NCBI GenBank assembly: GCA_030055615.1
Contig: JASFYN010000003.1
Location: 124,001-188,000, forward strand
From: Methanothermobacter sp.
GTDB taxonomy: Archaea > Methanobacteriota > Methanobacteria > Methanobacteriales > DSM-23052
Reading direction: 5' to 3'
DNA length: 64,000 nucleotides
Below are positions 979 to 47,120 of the stretch, in pieces (within the stretch, counting starts at the first letter, position 1; the number at the start of each line of letters is the position of its first letter). Made by a program: the position numbers and the translations under genes. The notes beneath the pieces were generated by a model. The model did not search any database. It saw nothing but the letters and a program-made list of their open reading frames with translations, and had not been told where the DNA came from.

Positions 979-2178
979 TTATCCGATCTTTTCGACTTCA
1001 AGGAACCTTTCACCTGCAATTCTAACCGTCAAAGCGCCAAGGGGTGCTGTGAATATTATTGACAGTACAGCCATGGCCAATATCAATTCCCCGTGGGCCA
1101 CCCCCATGGATAATGGTATTGCACCTATGGCGGCTTGTACTGTCGCCTTTGGTATATATGCGAATATGCAGAATATCCTTTCCTTTAAATTTAATTGCGT
1201 GCCCAAAAGTGATATGTAGACGCCAAGGCTCCTCCCTAAAAGTCCTATGACAATAATCGCAATACCTATAAAACCGGCTTTTACGAGAAGGTTGAGGTCA
1301 ACTTGCGCGCCTACAAGGACAAAGAGGAGTATCTCGGCGAATATCCATATTTTATTAAATTTCTTTGACAATTTTAATCCAACTTCAGGCATTTTCTCCA
1401 ATATTACAAGGCCTATGACCATGACACCTACGAGTGCTGCGATAGGAATGTATGAATTGAGAATGTCTCCCATATTCTTAAGGAGGATTGCTGTCGCAAG
1501 GACTATGAGGGTCTTCTCACTATCTCTTATCTTGAATCTCTTGAAAACTTGGATGAGGAGAAAACCCATGACAACTCCTCCCAGTATACCTAAAAGTATA
1601 GATAAAGGTACTCCCAAAATTTCCTTCACGATATTTATCTCTTTTCCTGTGTAGATTCCAAGGAATATTGAAAATATTGTTATTGAAATGACATCATCTA
1701 TTGAAGCTCCTGTGAGGATTAATGTTGGTATGCCTTTGGCTGTTCCCATCCGCCGTTCAATAAATGATAACATTTGAGGGACTATAACTGCCGGAGAGAC
1801 AGCTGCTATGACAAATCCAAGTATACCAGCTTCTACTAAAGGCAGACCCAATAAAAGGGAAGCTATTATCATTATGGTGAAACCTTCAATGCAATCAGGG
1901 ATGAAGCTCATCTTAACTGCGGCCATCCCAGCCTTCCTAAGACTTTCAATGTTTATGCCGAAGCCAGCTCTTAACAAGATTATTATGAGGGCTATGATCC
2001 TAAGGTCGCCTGAAATGGCTAATATATTCTTCGAAATAAGATTTAAGCCATGGGGGCCTAATAGCATGCCAAGAAGGAGTATTCCTAGAAGTCCTGGTAA
2101 TTTGATTTTTTCGAATATTCTACCTAAAAGAAGTCCTAGGATGATAATAATAGCTACGCTAAATGCAACATACTCCAT
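979..2178 (-). CDS. CPA2-type cation:proton antiporter
   Basis: Membrane antiporter of the monovalent cation:proton antiporter-2 / NhaP-like class, with about 12 hydrophobic segments and no soluble C-terminal TrkA domain. Family features visible are the N-terminal LPGLLGILLLGMLLGPHGL stretch and a GASIDDVISI motif mid-protein, which carries the paired acidic residues typical of ion-binding helices. The start is set at an internal ATG: GGAGGT lies 7 nt upstream of it, whereas the ATG 78 nt further out adds 26 residues with no ribosome site and charged, Cys-containing sequence. The resulting 399 residues is the usual family length. It probably exchanges Na+ or K+ for H+ in pH or sodium homeostasis; the ion cannot be read from sequence. 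Confidence 0.87.
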   Translation of the reverse strand: MEYVAFSVAIIIILGLLLGRIFEKIKLPGLLGILLLGMLLGPHGLNLISKNILAISGDLRIIALIIILLRAGFGINIESLRKAGMAAVKMSFIPDCIEGFTIMIIASLLLGLPLVEAGILGFVIAAVSPAVIVPQMLSFIERRMGTAKGIPTLILTGASIDDVISITIFSIFLGIYTGKEINIVKEILGVPLSILLGILGGVVMGFLLIQVFKRFKIRDSEKTLIVLATAILLKNMGDILNSYIPIAALVGVMVIGLVILEKMPEVGLKLSKKFNKIWIFAEILLFVLVGAQVDLNLLVKAGFIGIAIIVIGLLGRSLGVYISLLGTQLNLKERIFCIFAYIPKATVQAAIGAIPLSMGVAHGELILAMAVLSIIFTAPLGALTVRIAGERFLEVEKIG

Positions 2179-2358
2179 TGATAGAACCTCCATGCTCTCT
2201 TTTTGAAAGCAGGAGTCATCAGCTAAAAAATAGCAGTTAAAGGTGGACTCCATCACCTTTCTGATACATCATATCTACCATAAGATAATATATAAAGTTT
2301 ATGGGGGGGATCGTTTCAATTCCCATGGGGGTGAAAATTTTTGGTTGTGGGGGGAACA

Positions 2359-9611: not shown

Positions 9612-10217
9612 CCTATAGTATCTACAATATTCCCTTATTGGACATTCATCATGTCTAGGACTTATGGGCTTGCAAATGTCCTGTCCAAATTGTACGAAAA
9701 GATCATTAAGTTCAATCCAATACTCCTTCGGGACTATCTCCCTCAACCTTTTTTCGGTCTCCTCTGGAGTCTTTGTATCAACAAGGCCCAACCTATTACT
9801 TATACGGTGAACATGGGTATCAACTGGTATGGCAGCCTTCCCATACGCGTATACAAGTACGCAATTCGCAGTCTTCCTACCCACCCCAGGCAACTCTAAT
9901 AAATCCTCTAATTTGCTGGGCACTCTACCATTATACTCTTCCAATATAATCCTTGAGACTTCTTTTATTCTTCTAGCCTTCACCCTATAAAATCCAGCCG
10001 GCCTTATAAGCTGTTCTATCCTTTCAACTGGCGCCTCTGCAATATCTTTTACTGTTGGATATTCTTGGAATAGTCTATTACTGGCCTCATCAGTATTCTC
10101 ATCCCTTGTACGCTGCGACAATATGGTCCTTATAAGAACCCTATAAGGGTCTCTATCCTCGAATACGCGCAGATTATAAAACTTTCTAAGAATCTTGATT
10201 ATCTTAACTATCTTCAT
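9597..10217 (-). CDS. nth: Endonuclease III-type DNA glycosylase/AP lyase
   Basis: Base-excision repair enzyme of the HhH-GPD family, 206 residues. The helix-hairpin-helix LPGVGRKTA carries the catalytic Lys115, and VDTHVHR carries the catalytic Asp133. The C-terminal cluster motif reads C182-X6-H189-X2-C192-X5-C198, so the second of the four usual 4Fe-4S cysteines is a histidine (codon CAT). The rest of the spacing is canonical, so a 3Cys/1His cluster or an altered metal site is possible. It overlaps the upstream GTPase gene by ATGA and is the last gene of the valS-aroA-GTPase-nth run. It probably removes oxidised pyrimidines. Confidence 0.94.
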
Positions 10218-10660
10218 GAAATTTTTCCTAAGAGTATTTTAAGACCCTCTAGGAGTCCCGCATTCTCGGTCGCTATTGTGGGTATAACATCAACTCCCCT
10301 ACTTATTTCAAGGGTGGAATCATCCAAATCCTGTTTATTCGCAAATACAACATAAGGTATATTCGCATCTTCTAATGAGTCCATTATACGCTCTTCTACA
10401 GCTGTAACACCCCTACTATTATCAACCACTATTATAGCCCCGTCCAGGCCATTTGCTATTATCTCCAACATGAACCTGAACCTTTCATGACCTGGTGTGG
10501 CGAAAAGATGTATCTTTTCACCATCTAAGGTTATGTTACCATAATCAAGGGCTACTGTAATCCCATTGTATTCAACCTTCACGATCTTTTCACATAACTT
10601 TTCTAGGGTTGTTGTCTTCCCAGAATCATAATCTCCAAATATTACAATCTTTTTACCCAT
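10214..10660 (-). CDS. Small Ras/Srp102-like GTPase
   Basis: A 148-residue single-domain P-loop GTPase. It shows G1 GDYDSGKTT (9-17), a G3-like ATPGHERF in which the usual DxxG Asp is replaced, and G4 NKQD. This is the archaeal/bacterial COG2229-type group related to MglA and the signal-recognition receptor beta subunit. There is no lipidation or membrane segment. It overlaps aroA by 8 nt upstream and nth by 4 nt downstream, so it is made from the same message. Its role is unknown. The C-terminal half of the 391-residue fusion at 43903-45078 is a related GTPase. Confidence 0.85.
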
Positions 10661-40693: not shown

Positions 40694-41656
40694 TTGCTAC
40701 CAGTTGAATTTAACACTATCATAACAGTATCTATTATTTGTTTCACAGTGGCATTTTCATCAACCTATTTTGTAATGCCAAGATTAATAAAAAAGCTAAG
40801 GAATGCTAACATAGTCGGGAAAGACATCCACAAGATCTCTAAGCCAATGGTCGCTGAAATGGGTGGTATCGGAATACTATTCGGGTTTATAATAGGAATG
40901 TTCATAGCAATTTGCACATTCCCAAAACTCCACTATGAACTCATAGTAACCCTACTTGTTATTATACTAGTCGGCCTTGTGGGCATGGTAGACGACCTTG
41001 TAAGACTCTCATCAAAAGAAAAACTATTCCTCCTATTCTTGGCAGGACTCCCACTTATATGGGTAGCCCCTCCTAACGTAGGTATACTATATCTTATAAG
41101 TATGCCAATAGCAGTTTCCATCGCCTCAAACCTCACCAACATGCTAGCTGGTTTGAATGGGATCGAATCAGGACTAGGATCTATAGCCATGATATCACTC
41201 ACAGCATCCTGTATAATAATGGGAAAATATGATGTTTCACTTATTACGATGACAATGTTAGGTTCTCTTTTGGCCTTTTTAATATACAATCGGTACCCTT
41301 CGCGTGTATTCCCAGGAGATGTTGGTACACTTATAATAGGGGCATGTATAGCTGCTGTGGCATTCATAGGACGTATAAAGAGCATAGCATTCATCGTATT
41401 ATTACCGAATATAATAGATTCCATTTTAAAATTCTATAGCGCGGGTGTAATGGAGAGGCATCAACACACTCCTACAATGGTGACAGAAGATGGTAAACTT
41501 GTAGTCCCACCAGGAGGGTTCAATTCGCTTATAAGATGGATCCTTAGAAGGCCCATGAAGGAAAAACATGTTGTACTCATCGTATGGTTTATAGGAATAT
41601 TATTCGGTTCCCTTGGGATACTATTAGCCTTTATATTACCCCTTGACCCGATATAG
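40694..41656 (+). CDS. MraY/WecA-type phospho-sugar transferase
   Basis: A 320-residue glycosyltransferase family 4 membrane enzyme with about 10 helices. Catalytic motifs are GMVDDLVRLSSK (the DD pair), GLNGIESGLG and FPGDVGTL. Such enzymes move a sugar phosphate from a UDP-sugar to a polyprenyl phosphate, starting pseudomurein, N-glycan or wall polysaccharide synthesis. The TTG start follows GGGGTGATCC. Its 3' end overlaps the convergent TPR gene by 21 nt. Confidence 0.9.
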   Translation: MLPVEFNTIITVSIICFTVAFSSTYFVMPRLIKKLRNANIVGKDIHKISKPMVAEMGGIGILFGFIIGMFIAICTFPKLHYELIVTLLVIILVGLVGMVDDLVRLSSKEKLFLLFLAGLPLIWVAPPNVGILYLISMPIAVSIASNLTNMLAGLNGIESGLGSIAMISLTASCIIMGKYDVSLITMTMLGSLLAFLIYNRYPSRVFPGDVGTLIIGACIAAVAFIGRIKSIAFIVLLPNIIDSILKFYSAGVMERHQHTPTMVTEDGKLVVPPGGFNSLIRWILRRPMKEKHVVLIVWFIGILFGSLGILLAFILPLDPI

Positions 41657-42526
41657 TAACCTACAAATATCCACAACAACTTTAGAAGCCTTAGAATCGT
41701 CTGAATCCCTAAATAATTCAATTGCACTTTTAAAATTCTCTAAAGCCTCTTCTTCGTTTCCTTTGATGAAATATATGACGCCTAGGAAAACATTCACAAT
41801 CCCAAGTGACATCTTATCATCTCTTTTATCGAATATCTCCGCAGCCCGTTCAAAATAATTGAATGCATCATCATAATTCTTATCTTCGAATGAACGGCTT
41901 CCAAGGCTTAGGAGGATGGAAGCTTCACCCAATTCATCATTTATTGCCGTAGCTATATCCAGAGCCTCTTTTAATTCTTCAATGGTACCCCCAGGGGGTT
42001 CATATACTGATTCTAGACGTCCAAGTAGTGTTCTCAACTTTGGTAGTATCTTGTCAATATCAACTTCTAACTTTTCAGGTTCAGGAACCTTAGAGGTTTC
42101 CTCAAGTTTTTTATGCAATTCAGCCATTTCTATGGCTTCTTTCATCTTCTCGACTTCGCTTATCTTCTCTTTCATCTCGGCTTTGCGGGGTGATTTAATT
42201 GAAGAATAAACTTTGAATGCCTCCTTAAAATATTCAATAGCAATACCCATCTCTCTCTTATCTAGGTAAACATCACCCATAAAATCGAGTACAATAGCTT
42301 CAAGTTCTTTATCATCCAGTTCAACAGCTACTTTAAACGCTTTTTCAAGATATTCCATAGCATTTTCATGTTCACCCTTATCAAGGTAATATCCTGCTAT
42401 TGATAACAAAATATCGAACTCTTCCTCCCATAATTCCCGGAGACGGTGGATATAATCCTCTAATGACCTTCTCCTTTCAAATAGGTCAAATAAACCCAAT
42501 ATTAATATCATTCTACTTTCCAACAT
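41636..42526 (-). CDS. TPR repeat protein
   Basis: A 296-residue helical repeat protein with at least five tetratricopeptide units, such as AGYYLDKGEHENAMEYLEKA, GDVYLDKREMGIAIEYFKEA, and GVIYFIKGNEEEALENFKSA. A charged linker (KVPEPEKLEVDIDK) separates two TPR blocks. It is probably a scaffold for the products of the operon above it. Its first ATG overlaps the upstream KaiC-like gene by 14 nt; an ATG 15 nt later avoids this. Last gene of the Roadblock/KaiC operon. Confidence 0.85.
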   Translation of the reverse strand: MLESRMILILGLFDLFERRRSLEDYIHRLRELWEEEFDILLSIAGYYLDKGEHENAMEYLEKAFKVAVELDDKELEAIVLDFMGDVYLDKREMGIAIEYFKEAFKVYSSIKSPRKAEMKEKISEVEKMKEAIEMAELHKKLEETSKVPEPEKLEVDIDKILPKLRTLLGRLESVYEPPGGTIEELKEALDIATAINDELGEASILLSLGSRSFEDKNYDDAFNYFERAAEIFDKRDDKMSLGIVNVFLGVIYFIKGNEEEALENFKSAIELFRDSDDSKASKVVVDICRLLYRVKG

Positions 42527-43187
42527 GTAATCCCTTATCTGTTATGGTGTATTGGGCAGATTTTTTACCTGCTGAAGATTCTATCTTGATTTTTTCCCCA
42601 TCTAAACATAATTTTAAATCAGCTAAATCCATCAAAGAAGTTTCAATCTGAGGTTCAACAGTCCCTGTTGTATGCACCACAACCCCCACACCCCTAGCTT
42701 CACTTATACGACTCTTATAAGCTTTAACAAGCCTTAACACTAAACTTGGAGGGTTAAATGCGAATATCATTGTAAGAGAGTCCAATATAGCCCTAAACTT
42801 GGATGATTTCCTAAATAATGAACGTGTACCCACACCAACTTTCACCATAAAATCAGTAAGATTTTGGACTGATGAAAACTTTAATGTCTCTGAATCTTCA
42901 ACCTTAACACCAGCCAACCGGGTTAAAAGATCTATTATGTAAACATCACCATTTTGAATATATGGTCGCAGAAACCAATTAAATTCCATCATCCTCTGCT
43001 CAAGTTGCCTTGAACCATAATCAGCAACTATATACAAGCATGGTTCGCCACCTTCAAGGCCCGAATAAAGAAACTGATAGCAGAATATGGACTTACCTAC
43101 TTTAGGGGGGCCATAAAGTAATATAAGATTCCCAGGTGCCACATCCTCAAGAAGATCATCCAAAACATTCGCTTCCTGGCCCTTCAT
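42513..43187 (-). CDS. KaiC/RadA-like ATPase, paralogue 1
   Basis: A 224-residue single-domain RecA-fold ATPase. Walker A is GPPKVGKS, and a Walker-B-like strand ends in ILDSLT. It shares with its upstream neighbour the segment SSVxNxTDxMVKxGxxxR, so the two are in-paralogues. Single-domain KaiC proteins include ArlH/FlaH, the archaellum assembly ATPase. The start ATG is chosen 9 nt inside a GTG frame because TGTGAT precedes it. Fourth gene of the operon. Confidence 0.82.
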   Translation of the reverse strand: MKGQEANVLDDLLEDVAPGNLILLYGPPKVGKSIFCYQFLYSGLEGGEPCLYIVADYGSRQLEQRMMEFNWFLRPYIQNGDVYIIDLLTRLAGVKVEDSETLKFSSVQNLTDFMVKVGVGTRSLFRKSSKFRAILDSLTMIFAFNPPSLVLRLVKAYKSRISEARGVGVVVHTTGTVEPQIETSLMDLADLKLCLDGEKIKIESSAGKKSAQYTITDKGLHVGK

Positions 43188-43202
43188 GAATATCACACAA
43201 AT

Positions 43203-43901
43203 TTAGTCAACTATTATACCCCTAGAGGTTATATCATAATGGGCTTTTACCTTACCACTTCCGATCATGGCCTCTATGGTGAGTTTCTCCCCATCAAGGT
43301 GAATTATATTATCTACTATGGCTTTTAACATGTTCTCGACCCTGGAAGAAGCTGAACCTTCAGTGTAAGTTACAATTGCTGTTCCTCCACTCTCTTTTAT
43401 ACGCATTATATAGACTGTGAGCACCCTTACAATCAAAACTTCGTCATTGAATGCCATGAGGGTTGTTAACGAATCAAGAACTGATCTGTAACGGGGCGAG
43501 TTTGATGTTATCTGGCGTATGGCCATTCCCAATTTTACCATGATATCTGTGGGATTATGTACAGATGATAAAAAATAGTTAGGTTTACTTTCAACTTCCA
43601 CGCCTGCAATTGTTGATATGGCATCTATGAAATAAAAACTTTCATTTTCTATGTATTCAGAGAGGTTCCAACCGAAATTGGCTATATTTCTTTCAATGTC
43701 CTTCAGGCCATAATCTGTGCTGATATAAAGGCATGGTTCATTATTAAGAAGGCCCTCATATGCAAATTGATAAGAGAATACAGATTTCCCAACCTTTGGA
43801 GGACCGTAGACGAGTGTAACAGTGTTCTCTGCAAATGATCCGCTTCCTTCACTTACAAGTTCATCTAAACCGGGAATACCTGATGGGATCCTTATAATCA
43901 A
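43203..43901 (-). CDS. KaiC/RadA-like ATPase, paralogue 2
   Basis: A 232-residue RecA-fold ATPase starting with the usual IRIPSGIPGLDELV. Walker A is GPPKVGKS and the Walker-B-like strand ends in VLDSLT. The start is TTG because GGTGAT lies just upstream and this removes overlap with the preceding gene (1-nt gap). It is paralogous to the gene that follows. It could form hetero-oligomers with that protein and with the KaiC-like half of the GTPase fusion, which is inference. Confidence 0.82.
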   Translation of the reverse strand: MIIRIPSGIPGLDELVSEGSGSFAENTVTLVYGPPKVGKSVFSYQFAYEGLLNNEPCLYISTDYGLKDIERNIANFGWNLSEYIENESFYFIDAISTIAGVEVESKPNYFLSSVHNPTDIMVKLGMAIRQITSNSPRYRSVLDSLTTLMAFNDEVLIVRVLTVYIMRIKESGGTAIVTYTEGSASSRVENMLKAIVDNIIHLDGEKLTIEAMIGSGKVKAHYDITSRGIIVD

Positions 43902-43902
43902 T

Positions 43903-45078
43903 TTAATCACCATAGAGTAATCCTAGGAGGGCGTCAAGGGCATCAGTGACTCCTTTCCCTTCTGTTACTATCGCTGGTATGATGGGGATGTCCTTGCCAA
44001 GTTTCATCTTTTCACGTATTTCTTCGGGTGAAAGTGCCCCTGGCAAGTCTTGTTTATTCGCGACTAAAACTTTTGGTATCGCCTCTGCTTTTGCCTTCCT
44101 TATCATTTCTTTGGCCCTTGCAAATGTTTGTGGGGCTGTTGAGTCAACGATTATAAAAGCACCAACTGATTCCCTGCCTAGAACATCTAATAGTAAGTCA
44201 AATCGTTCCTGGCCTGGTGTGCCGAATACATCAGCTATAAAACCTTTATATTCAAGATGTCCTATATCTAATGCTATCGTGGTTGGAAAAGCCGATAAAG
44301 CCTTCCTATCAACTGAAACAGACTTCTTTGATATTTTCTTCACGAAAGTCGATTTACCTGCATTGTATGGGCCGGTGACTAATATCTTCGGTATGTATAC
44401 TTTAACTCCTCCTGGTTGCACCACAAAGAATAGTACCATAGTATCTGATGGTTTGGACCATGAAGAATGGGCTACCATGAAACCTTGGCCTATTATAACC
44501 CTTTCTTCTATTGTTTTGATCTCAACTACACAATCCATGGATTTTTTAAGATTTTGGATTAAATCGTGGTTATAATCCCATTTTGTGAAGAGATAAATTA
44601 GGCTAGTATTATATTTTTTGCCATGTGAATTCCATTTTTTTATGATGTTTATTGTCTCATTTTCTCCAAGATAATCTATCAGGGTTGAAAGGTTATTTAT
44701 GATACCTATACCATCGGGCACGTCCTCTATAGCTTCTAGTATCACTTCTTCTATCTGTGAATAGTCCTCGATGGAATATTTGGCATCTGATGGTAATCCT
44801 ATGAACGGTGAAGTTCCATCAACAAAGAAAGCTTGGGTATCTTTTAAGAATTTTTCAAGGTCCCAACCATAGGATTTGAACTCATATATTATCGTTTCAG
44901 GTTCGGCTACATTCGTGAATATGAAACCCTTATCTCCATCTCTTAATCTCCCATTTAGCATCTGATAGCCAAATGCTTCATAATCCACTCCAGGAACGGC
45001 GGAGAACATTAGAGAGGCGTTATCGATTATACCGCCACCGAGTATGTCGTCAAGTTTAGGGATGTAAGTCTTTTTCAT
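43903..45078 (-). CDS. Degenerate KaiC-like domain fused to small GTPase
   Basis: A 391-residue two-domain protein. Residues 1 to about 225 resemble a KaiC domain ([22 protein letters not shown]) but the Walker A position reads [10 protein letters not shown], without GK(S/T), so this half should not bind ATP. Residues from about 230 form a Ras-like GTPase: [17 protein letters not shown] and NKQD. ATG is used because GGAG lies 8 nt upstream; 2 nt separate it from the Roadblock gene. With a Roadblock protein next door, it recalls MglA-MglB, with the dead KaiC half perhaps joining the active paralogues. Confidence 0.85.
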
Positions 45079-45080
45079 CT

Positions 45081-45458
45081 TCACATCTCCTTGAGTATTT
45101 CTTCAACCTGACTTGCCCTAGTTTCCATTTCAACGAGTAAAAGACCCAATTGGGCGTTTGGTTCTGCGAGTGCCGTTAATATAGCCTTCTCACCCGCAGG
45201 TTTTAAGATTATTATACCCTTCTCGGTCCTTACGGTGATCTCATCCACCGCACCAGTGTTCATCTGGCTAGAAGCAGCTTCTGCAGCTCCCATGATAGTG
45301 GAACATAAAGCTGAGAAGATTCTCGCATCCACGTCTGGGGGTGTGCGTGCATTTATAAGAAGACCTTCCTTGGACACTATCCCTGATGCTCTTATCTGTC
45401 CAACTTGCATAAAACTCGAAAGAACATCATCTAATTTTTCTTTTTTTGTTTTAGTCAT
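45081..45458 (-). CDS. Roadblock/LC7 (MglB-like) protein
   Basis: A 125-residue Roadblock/LC7 domain: [17 protein letters not shown], the central helix [14 protein letters not shown] and the [19 protein letters not shown] end. Such proteins bind and regulate small GTPases (MglB activates MglA). It is followed 2 nt later by the GTPase fusion, its likely partner. The start is the ATG after GGGTGGATCT. A TATA box TTATATATAA at 45490-45499 gives the operon its own promoter. Confidence 0.88.
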
Positions 45459-45489
45459 AGATCCACCCAACAAGAAATTTATTATCTAC

Positions 45490-45499
45490 TTATATATAA
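45490..45499 (-). promoter_or_regulatory. TATA box of the Roadblock/KaiC operon
   Basis: TTATATATAA on the minus strand, 31 nt before the Roadblock ATG; a start near 45466 would give a very short leader. Confidence 0.55.
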
Positions 45500-45604
45500 C
45501 CTCATATGTGAAATCCCCCACACACTGAGGGGTTCTATACTTACCCCATTCTGAAATATAATAAATTGTTTATAATCTTATCATACTAGTGGTTTTCGAT
45601 TTTT

Positions 45605-46096
45605 TTATACCCATTTCACATCTGATGTTGTGAACATGTAATTGTATGAGAAGGCTGGATTATAAAAACCATTAGTCATATTCTCTGTTTTAAATGTTGA
45701 ACAAATGTTTCTCCGCATGTAATAATTTATCCTGTCTCCTAAAGAATTTCTACAATCTTCTGGGATTTCCCTTTTTAGATGAGCATATACTATAAGCCTA
45801 ATTTTATATTTTCCATAAGTTTCATTATATCCCTCTTTTATAGCCTCCATTTTAATTATCTGGACAGAAGACGGTTGTAAAAGGATATTCTTCCTTGTCG
45901 TATATTCATGATAAGCATCCCAGGAATAAAGTGCAAGTTCATCCATGTTAGCTCCTTGGATAGCACCATCCCTTGCAGCTGCAAGAGCAATATCCAATTC
46001 CAGATTATCAATTAAAAAATAGGATACCAGAAAAAGTGTTGGAATAATAAAACCCAAAATAAGAATATACTCCCCTGTTATCTGGCCTCTATCCAT
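45605..46096 (-). CDS. Class III signal peptide pilin-like protein
   Basis: A 163-residue type IV pilin-like protein. The N-terminus MDRG|QITGEYILILGF has the archaeal class III pattern: short basic leader, Gly before a Gln at +1, Glu at +5, then a long hydrophobic helix. The globular part has two cysteines and several N-glycosylation sequons. It should be processed by an EppA-type peptidase. It starts 1 nt after the preceding pilin-like gene and lies 146 nt upstream of the Roadblock operon. Confidence 0.75.
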   Translation of the reverse strand: MDRGQITGEYILILGFIIPTLFLVSYFLIDNLELDIALAAARDGAIQGANMDELALYSWDAYHEYTTRKNILLQPSSVQIIKMEAIKEGYNETYGKYKIRLIVYAHLKREIPEDCRNSLGDRINYYMRRNICSTFKTENMTNGFYNPAFSYNYMFTTSDVKWV

Positions 46097-46097
46097 C

Positions 46098-46541
46098 CTA
46101 CCTTTCCTCTGTTATCATTATAATAATCCTATGGTCCTTTTTAAAATTCTTAATCTTGTAAGTGAAGCCAGGTCTCAATATGATATTTCTGGGATTCCCA
46201 TTATGATCAACTATCACACAAGGGTAAATTGAGGACATACCATACCTCCCATTAACCATGCCATACACTCCACTAGAGTTGACCCATAACTGATAACGTG
46301 AACCATGGATACTATCAGGGGCCGCGAAGATCACCTCATGTCCTGGGCCACCAGCCAATACAAGATTAACCTTACCAGCCAATTCGTCCATTAAAACCCT
46401 TAAATCAGTTAAAATTCTTTCCTCGTTAGCATAATCTATCCTATAGGAGGCCATACTCATCAAATATAATATTATAAAGGACAAGTAAAGGAATGAGATC
46501 AAGAAATCCGTTGTAAAAATTCCTCTTTCACATTCTATCAT
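46098..46541 (-). CDS. Pilin-like minor subunit
   Basis: A 147-residue protein with an N-terminal ERGIFTTDFLISFLYLSF helix, the size and layout of a pseudopilin but without the class III Gln. The rest is beta-rich (GSRYQLWVNSSGVYG) with a basic C-terminus. GAGGGTGG precedes the ATG. It probably pairs with the class III pilin-like protein encoded 1 nt downstream. Confidence 0.62.
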   Translation of the reverse strand: MIECERGIFTTDFLISFLYLSFIILYLMSMASYRIDYANEERILTDLRVLMDELAGKVNLVLAGGPGHEVIFAAPDSIHGSRYQLWVNSSGVYGMVNGRYGMSSIYPCVIVDHNGNPRNIILRPGFTYKIKNFKKDHRIIIMITEER

Positions 46542-46643
46542 AGAACCACCCTCTAGTATGATAAAATTATAAAATGTTAATATAATTTTTCCTTATGATT
46601 TTATAATAGAGTCTCCTAGAATATATCATAGCGGGGAGTGAAA

Positions 46644-47120
46644 ATGTATAAGATAGTATTATTTAGTGGAGGCCCTTACAGATTCGAGGAATTCGAAGAA
46701 TATGTGGAGGATATTGGAGGTCTAGTGCTTAAAAAGGATCGTTTTAATGTGAGCAGAGGAGAATACTTCCTAGCAGAGGAAATTAAAGCTCTAACAATAA
46801 TACCCGAAGAAGAAGAGGAACAACTAAAGACGATCGTAAATAGGATAAAAGGGTTCATCCAAGAATTACCATTTGACGAGAACAAAAAAAGGAAAATACT
46901 ACTATGCATACTCCTACATGACTCATTGACTAGGAACCCCCAATGGATGGAAAAAGAGGAAATAGAAGAAAAACTAGTATGCCCTTGTGAAATTAAATTT
47001 TGTGAAAATTCGCCAGAATGCTTCATTGACTTGCCAGAGGTCCTAGATGCAATGGTGGAAATGGAACTATTAGAAAAGAGAGATAATAAAGGCACAGCCG
47101 AATATAGGATAATCATCTAA
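46644..47120 (+). CDS. Conserved hypothetical Cys-containing protein
   Basis: A 158-residue soluble protein, not recognised. It opens with a Rossmann-like strand KIVLFSGGPYRFEEFEEYVE, has an acidic helical middle, and carries CPCEIKFCENSPEC, which could form a metal site. ATG is chosen because GGGGAG lies 5 nt upstream. It is followed 27 nt later by a TIGR00304-type membrane protein. Confidence 0.6.
   Translation: MYKIVLFSGGPYRFEEFEEYVEDIGGLVLKKDRFNVSRGEYFLAEEIKALTIIPEEEEEQLKTIVNRIKGFIQELPFDENKKRKILLCILLHDSLTRNPQWMEKEEIEEKLVCPCEIKFCENSPECFIDLPEVLDAMVEMELLEKRDNKGTAEYRIII

Follow-up and report, generated by a model that had tools for sequence, protein, structure and literature searches.

We analyzed a 64,000-nt stretch of Methanothermobacter sp. 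DNA (GCA_030055615.1, contig JASFYN010000003.1, positions 124,001 to 188,000, forward strand; hereafter the window) and found that five minus-strand genes in it (45458-41636), identified from the open reading frame (ORF) list and by Pfam, form a conserved cassette encoding a Roadblock protein, a KaiC-GTPase fusion, two KaiC-like ATPases (KaiC2 and KaiC3) and a TPR protein. We hold with moderate confidence that the cassette may encode a Roadblock-regulated MglA-type GTPase, tethered via a catalytically dead KaiC domain to an assembly of KaiC2 and KaiC3, with the TPR protein as its output. Roadblock-GTPase pairs have been proposed as polarity switches. A first-pass annotation of the sequence had described five closely packed genes with two pilin-like genes (pilA and pilB) just upstream on the same strand. 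All seven ORFs were present, the domains other than those of the pilins were assigned by Pfam with scores far above the cut-offs, and with the likely start codons, which were chosen from relatives and sequence, neighboring cassette genes overlap or are spaced by about 1-15 nt. The pilin-like genes, in a minus-strand run starting at 46541, match no Pfam family and carry class-III-type leaders (pilB G↓Q-x-x-x-E, pilA G↓x-x-x-x-D). The arrangement is beyond chance, the same order recurring in 18 other loci.

The Roadblock protein matched Pfam PF03259 (Robl_LC7) with E=6e-23 and 80.8 bits vs. a cut-off of 23, and its identity among all cassettes is 78-97%. In a comparison with the PDB its nearest solved chains were other prokaryotic Roadblock proteins, including CvnB5 of a conservon, and it scored far below the cut-off of the NCBIfam MglB equivalog. 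Roadblock dimers are known as platforms for small GTPases (PMC10933270). The adjacent fusion matched PF06745 over residues 5-231 (E=3.5e-16) and PF00025 (1e-12), and its G domain matched NCBIfam TIGR00231 over residues 231-385 (5e-17). The motifs of the G domain are invariant, i.e., G1 GPYNxGKS, G2 PTTIA, G3 FGTPGQERF (10 of the 10 aligned fusions) and G4 NKQD. MglA groups 2-5 are marked by GTPGQ in G3 and by a Thr replacing the intrinsic Arg of group 1 in G2 (PMC4316618), and the fusion carries both marks. Coupling to MglB predominates among MglA-family genes (PMC4316618), and the fusion lies next to the Roadblock gene in all loci, within the four genes of a Roadblock/MglB homolog that the family definition allows. 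The MglA survey was of single-domain proteins of ≤240 aa (Wuichet and Sogaard-Andersen, 2014; PMC4316618), whereas the fusion has 391 aa and a KaiC domain; hence we label it an MglA-like fusion and not MglA. Against MglA, Arf and Rab structures the G domain gave alike scores. In all aligned copies the KaiC half has lost the P-loop (Walker A) lysine, the two catalytic glutamates and the aspartate of Walker B, and the P-loop site reads S/CAxPGV(D/N) instead. A structure model of the fusion recovered this KaiC half (TMt 0.75 to PH0284) at an overall pLDDT of only 59. The window also contains a stand-alone small GTPase (10214-10660, minus strand) with 35% identity to the fusion G domain and mostly ATPGH in G3; its distribution is confined to cassette genomes plus G049 and G101.

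KaiC2 and KaiC3 matched PF06745 with E=2e-33 and E=2e-17, respectively, and both have intact Walker A (GPPKVGKS) and Walker B (LDS) motifs. An alignment including PDB chains placed Asp/Glu-Tyr, in all copies, at the position of the catalytic Glu-Glu pair of active KaiC; this pair is replaced by D-Y in KaiC2, and KaiC3 follows the same motif pattern. Judged from these motifs, both proteins can probably bind ATP and probably hydrolyze it slowly, because the catalytic glutamate pair is lost. They are not ArlH, since they scored 38.6 and 27.8 bits vs. a cut-off of 215 with the NCBIfam ArlH equivalog. The TPR protein matched TPR_12 with E=4e-23 and is conserved at 36-87%. A defense-system reading was rejected, as the PADLOC matches were limited to a generic TPR model and weak P-loop hits.

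In the mechanism that we propose, a Roadblock dimer would act as a regulatory platform, either GTPase-activating protein or guanine nucleotide exchange factor, for the MglA-type GTPase, while the catalytically dead KaiC domain would tether that GTPase to KaiC2 and KaiC3 within an assembly of mixed KaiC subunits. The GTPase and the KaiC subunits might in this way respond to each other's nucleotide state, and the TPR protein would be an adaptor passing the output to a partner. All of the protein contacts, the role of Roadblock as regulator, the KaiC co-assembly and the TPR protein as output are what we infer for this set of genes.

The distribution of the cassette was determined in 100 genomes of the order Methanobacteriales. 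The full-length fusion is present in 18 of them (19 copies), the Roadblock ortholog in the identical 18, and full-length KaiC2 and KaiC3 in those 18 and in G049. Thus, the co-conservation check that the first-pass annotation had proposed came out in favor of a co-inherited five-gene system, whose homologs are not scattered singly. The gene order is retained in 18 fetched loci, with variations in G010, G038, G071 and G078; cassettes of the last three carry an extra KaiC gene and/or a gene for a Cys-rich protein of 158-172 aa. No fusion turned up in a profile search of the phylum's 152 genomes from outside the order, and the six fusion loci returned when 84,980 species were scanned with a seed pattern were all Methanobacteriales by relationship, although such a scan depends on exact peptide matches and more distant fusions would escape it. 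A MetRS tree built from 40 genomes has a branch (96/93) that separates the cassette-free genomes from the positives; two partial genomes also fall with the positives, as does G100, a class-level relative in which the fusion is absent and two Roadblock proteins are kept. Since both families, and also the other positive f3 lineages, have the cassette at one and the same site, a single loss is the simplest account of its absence, and the cassette is probably ancestral to Methanobacteriales and was lost on the branch that gave rise to most of the order's other genera. As a separate observation on the marker used, MetRS appears to be stop-interrupted or divided between two ORFs in several genomes (L145, L146, L152, L153, L156, and L067).

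The dN/dS values of Roadblock and fusion match and are the lowest in the cassette (0.047-0.067), those of KaiC2, KaiC3 and TPR being 0.14-0.18; the latter three genes evolve about three times faster. By domain, the fusion gave 0.074 for the dead KaiC half and 0.021 for the G domain, and the pseudo-KaiC half is under strong purifying selection despite its motif loss. This split in rates is as would be expected if Roadblock and fusion were the core switch, with KaiC2, KaiC3 and TPR adapting to variable partners.

Several observations weigh against the tethered-GTPase interpretation. The cassette-free genomes form one clade and one loss covers most of the co-absence, whose weight as independent evidence should not be overstated, and co-inheritance counts for less than 18/18 suggests. 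The parts are not all indispensable, as G010 has no KaiC3, and G049 (L106:792-3372) has pilA-pilB-KaiC2-KaiC3 with no Roadblock or fusion gene between pilB and KaiC2, this partial cassette lying on a 3.6-kb contig of a fragmented assembly. The Roadblock protein has an invariant Glu-Gly (SKEGLL) where the MglB partners of groups 2-5 have Asp-Gly, a conservative D-to-E change, and the GTPase half of the fusion was poorly modeled. In G010 we also observed a 252-aa ORF (L054:9888-10646, minus strand) in which pilB, having lost its C-terminus and the intergenic region, runs in frame into Roadblock.

The first-pass annotation had read the locus as a GTPase-controlled switch for a type IV pilus-like or polarity machine. 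The GTPase part of this proposal stood, in that MglA-type motifs occur beside an MglB/Roadblock homolog, while the type IV pilus link did not. We regard it as improbable that the cassette is a GTPase or polarity switch dedicated to a type IV pilus that includes both adjacent pilins. Such a role would fit the same-strand adjacency of pilins and cassette, which is seen at almost all cassettes whose flank is long enough, the KaiC ATPases and Roadblock proteins (arCOG02603) that archaeal type IV pilus loci are reported often to encode (PMC4858521), and the stimulation of type IV pilus assembly by Myxococcus MglA (PMC9481161). It would also fit the minor-pilin-like appearance of pilA and pilB; these are probably minor pilins of a general pilus, because each has a paralog in the locus of the genome that encodes a weakly EppA-like prepilin peptidase. 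However, pilB has a match in 97 of the 100 order genomes, among them 79 of the 82 that lack the fusion, and in cassette-free genomes pilA-pilB stand at the same place, between the CobM-side genes and the GT4-HTH-DUF530-MetRS run (GT4, glycosyl transferase family 4). Nothing or little then separates pilB from GT4: the distance is -4, 3, 24, 29, 54, 84 and 172 nt in seven cassette-free genomes, a further two have 334 and 384 nt, and the window has 3948 nt. The pilus ATPase has a strong match in 98 of the 100 genomes. Across the order, the cassette is not co-inherited with the adjacent pilins or with the pilus ATPase. The whole neighborhood being syntenic, the pilin adjacency is explained by inherited synteny and says little on function, and we rejected pilin linkage as a basis for assigning one. 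A separate TATA-like element ahead of the cassette is a further point against a dedicated pilus switch: ‘ttatatata’ and a ribosome-binding-type ‘gggtgga’ precede the ATG of Roadblock at 45458, are common to the window and closely related genomes, and suggest that the cassette may have its own promoter and a transcript separate from the pilins. An Rfam search gave no match within the cassette. Pilus control by the cassette is thus possible but is unsupported by genome comparison. Beside pilA, the window has a conserved gene (46638-47120, plus strand) for a 160-aa protein whose match to the McrC/methanogenesis-marker-7 family is limited to the ~70 N-terminal residues of the family.

Two other explanations were weighed. 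It is doubtful that the cassette is part of a network for cell division or polarity, in which the GTPase switch would position machinery of the kind encoded beside a second Roadblock gene, i.e., SepF, DUF2226 and MinD. MglA and MglB are polarity proteins, and this Roadblock-2 adjoins SepF in 9 of 9 examined loci, followed by DUF2226 and MinD in eight (in the ninth the contig ends), the three families having been confirmed by Pfam/NCBIfam in one of the nine; but the link runs via a paralog at another locus with the opposite direction of transcription, and SepF and MinD are general genes. Roadblock-2 itself lies at G000:C2:189392-189658 (L123:11312-11668), divergent from the SepF-DUF2226-MinD run, and the DUF2226 N-terminus is weakly DUF4388-like. 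We also think it unlikely that the cassette is made up of at least two unrelated units held side by side through slow rearrangement of a syntenic region. The flanks are indeed syntenic too (MetRS, DUF530, HTH and GT4 on one side; CobM, NikR and ZnuABC on the other), and the partial cassettes of G049 and G010 point the same way. Yet flanks and pilins stay where all five genes are missing together, the five genes overlap or are set very closely, and the ordered block occurs twice in G078, where the second copy lies at the edge of a contig.

The cassette resembles MglA/MglB of Myxococcus and Thermus and MglA groups 2-5 (PMC4316618) in coupling a small GTPase gene to a Roadblock gene, and groups 2-5 also in the G3 and G2 residues (GTPGQ, and Thr for the group-1 arginine). 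Unlike in those systems, its GTPase is fused to a dead KaiC domain, and the operon that encodes it also contains a TPR gene and two KaiC genes. MglA-family GTPases have been reported before in methanogens, and archaeal group 4 was described as without conserved neighbors (PMC4316618). The actinobacterial conservon (CvnA-D) is likewise a fixed small operon with a Roadblock protein and an MglA-type GTPase, but has a histidine kinase and CvnC instead of the KaiC and TPR proteins. With archaeal KaiC-like ATPases and ArlH the cassette shares PF06745 domains, inactivated homologs and ties to regulatory loci (PMC4858521); it differs from ArlH in falling short of the ArlH model and in the direct fusion of a KaiC domain to a small GTPase. 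The eukaryotic Ragulator/TRAPP complexes and the Roadblock-GTPase-TRAPPC3 sets of Asgard archaea (PMC10933270) share the Roadblock platform with a small GTPase, and three cassette lineages add a possible, weakly matching TRAPPC3/V4R-fold protein; the KaiC components of the cassette have no counterpart in these sets. The operon unites a KaiC hub and a Roadblock-GTPase switch in one small conserved unit, with the GTPase fused to a KaiC domain, and would make the question of what a KaiC hub switches on directly testable in Methanothermobacter-type thermophiles. Archaeal KaiC-like ATPases were reportedly presented as signaling hubs in mBio in 2017. In the searched literature, which did not take in that KaiC-hub paper, we found no fixed cassette of five genes with a direct KaiC-MglA fusion, and the paper may describe the operon.

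The gene for the Cys-rich protein lies between KaiC3 and TPR in three lineages (the g9, g16 and g18 cassettes). Its product has no sequence match in Pfam, NCBIfam or the PDB and no sequence-level relation to TRAPPC3; a match in G091 looks like chance, being to an unrelated metal-hydrolase-like ORF. The structure model is of low confidence (pLDDT 51), and its natural Foldseek neighbors, at TM of about 0.4 and E of about 0.01 and ranked behind designed proteins, include Bet3/TRAPPC3 (also TRAPPC3 of Thorarchaeota), H-NOX and BcsD-type proteins. From this model we raise, very tentatively, that the fuller cassette might be a ligand-sensing GTPase complex in which Roadblock, the small GTPase and a ligand-binding Cys-rich protein of TRAPPC3/V4R fold would sit on a KaiC scaffold. 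If true, a ligand-sensing complex of methanogens would parallel the Roadblock-GTPase-TRAPPC3 set of Asgard archaea and eukaryotes.

Table 1. Features of the cassette and its surroundings (window positions, unless a locus is named).
Feature	Position	Strand	Basis and remarks
GT4, convergent flank, other cassette edge	40694..41656	+	PF00953 E=3e-27
TPR protein, ~290 aa, final cassette gene	41636..42511	-	TPR_12; start ATG 42511; ORF reaches 42526
KaiC3, second KaiC-like ATPase	42513..43196	-	PF06745; start GTG 43196 or ATG 43187
KaiC2, KaiC-like ATPase	43203..43901	-	PF06745; start TTG 43901 or ATG 43913 (ORF reaches 43913)
Fusion, 391 aa: pseudo-KaiC domain (residues 1-~225) and predicted MglA-type small GTPase domain (residues ~229-391)	43903..45078	-	PF06745, PF00025, TIGR00231; start ATG 45078
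Roadblock/LC7 protein, 125 aa	45081..45458	-	PF03259; start ATG 45458; ORF reaches 45473
Leader between pilB and Roadblock, with TATA-like element (about 45499-45491)	45459..45604	-	Sequence inspection
pilB, pilin-like, class-III-like leader; neighbor outside cassette	45605..46096	-	Match in 97/100 order genomes; adjoins GT4 where cassette absent
pilA, pilin-like; neighbor outside cassette	46098..46541	-	Leader sequence; locus comparison
Cys-rich gene (other genomes)	L080:10625-11116, L081:3219-3695, L082:6034-6552		

Elsewhere in the window, a fluoride riboswitch (RF01734; 2203-2266, minus strand) overlaps the 5′ ORF end of a Na+/H+-exchanger-family gene (979-2256, minus strand) and probably sits in the leader of that gene.

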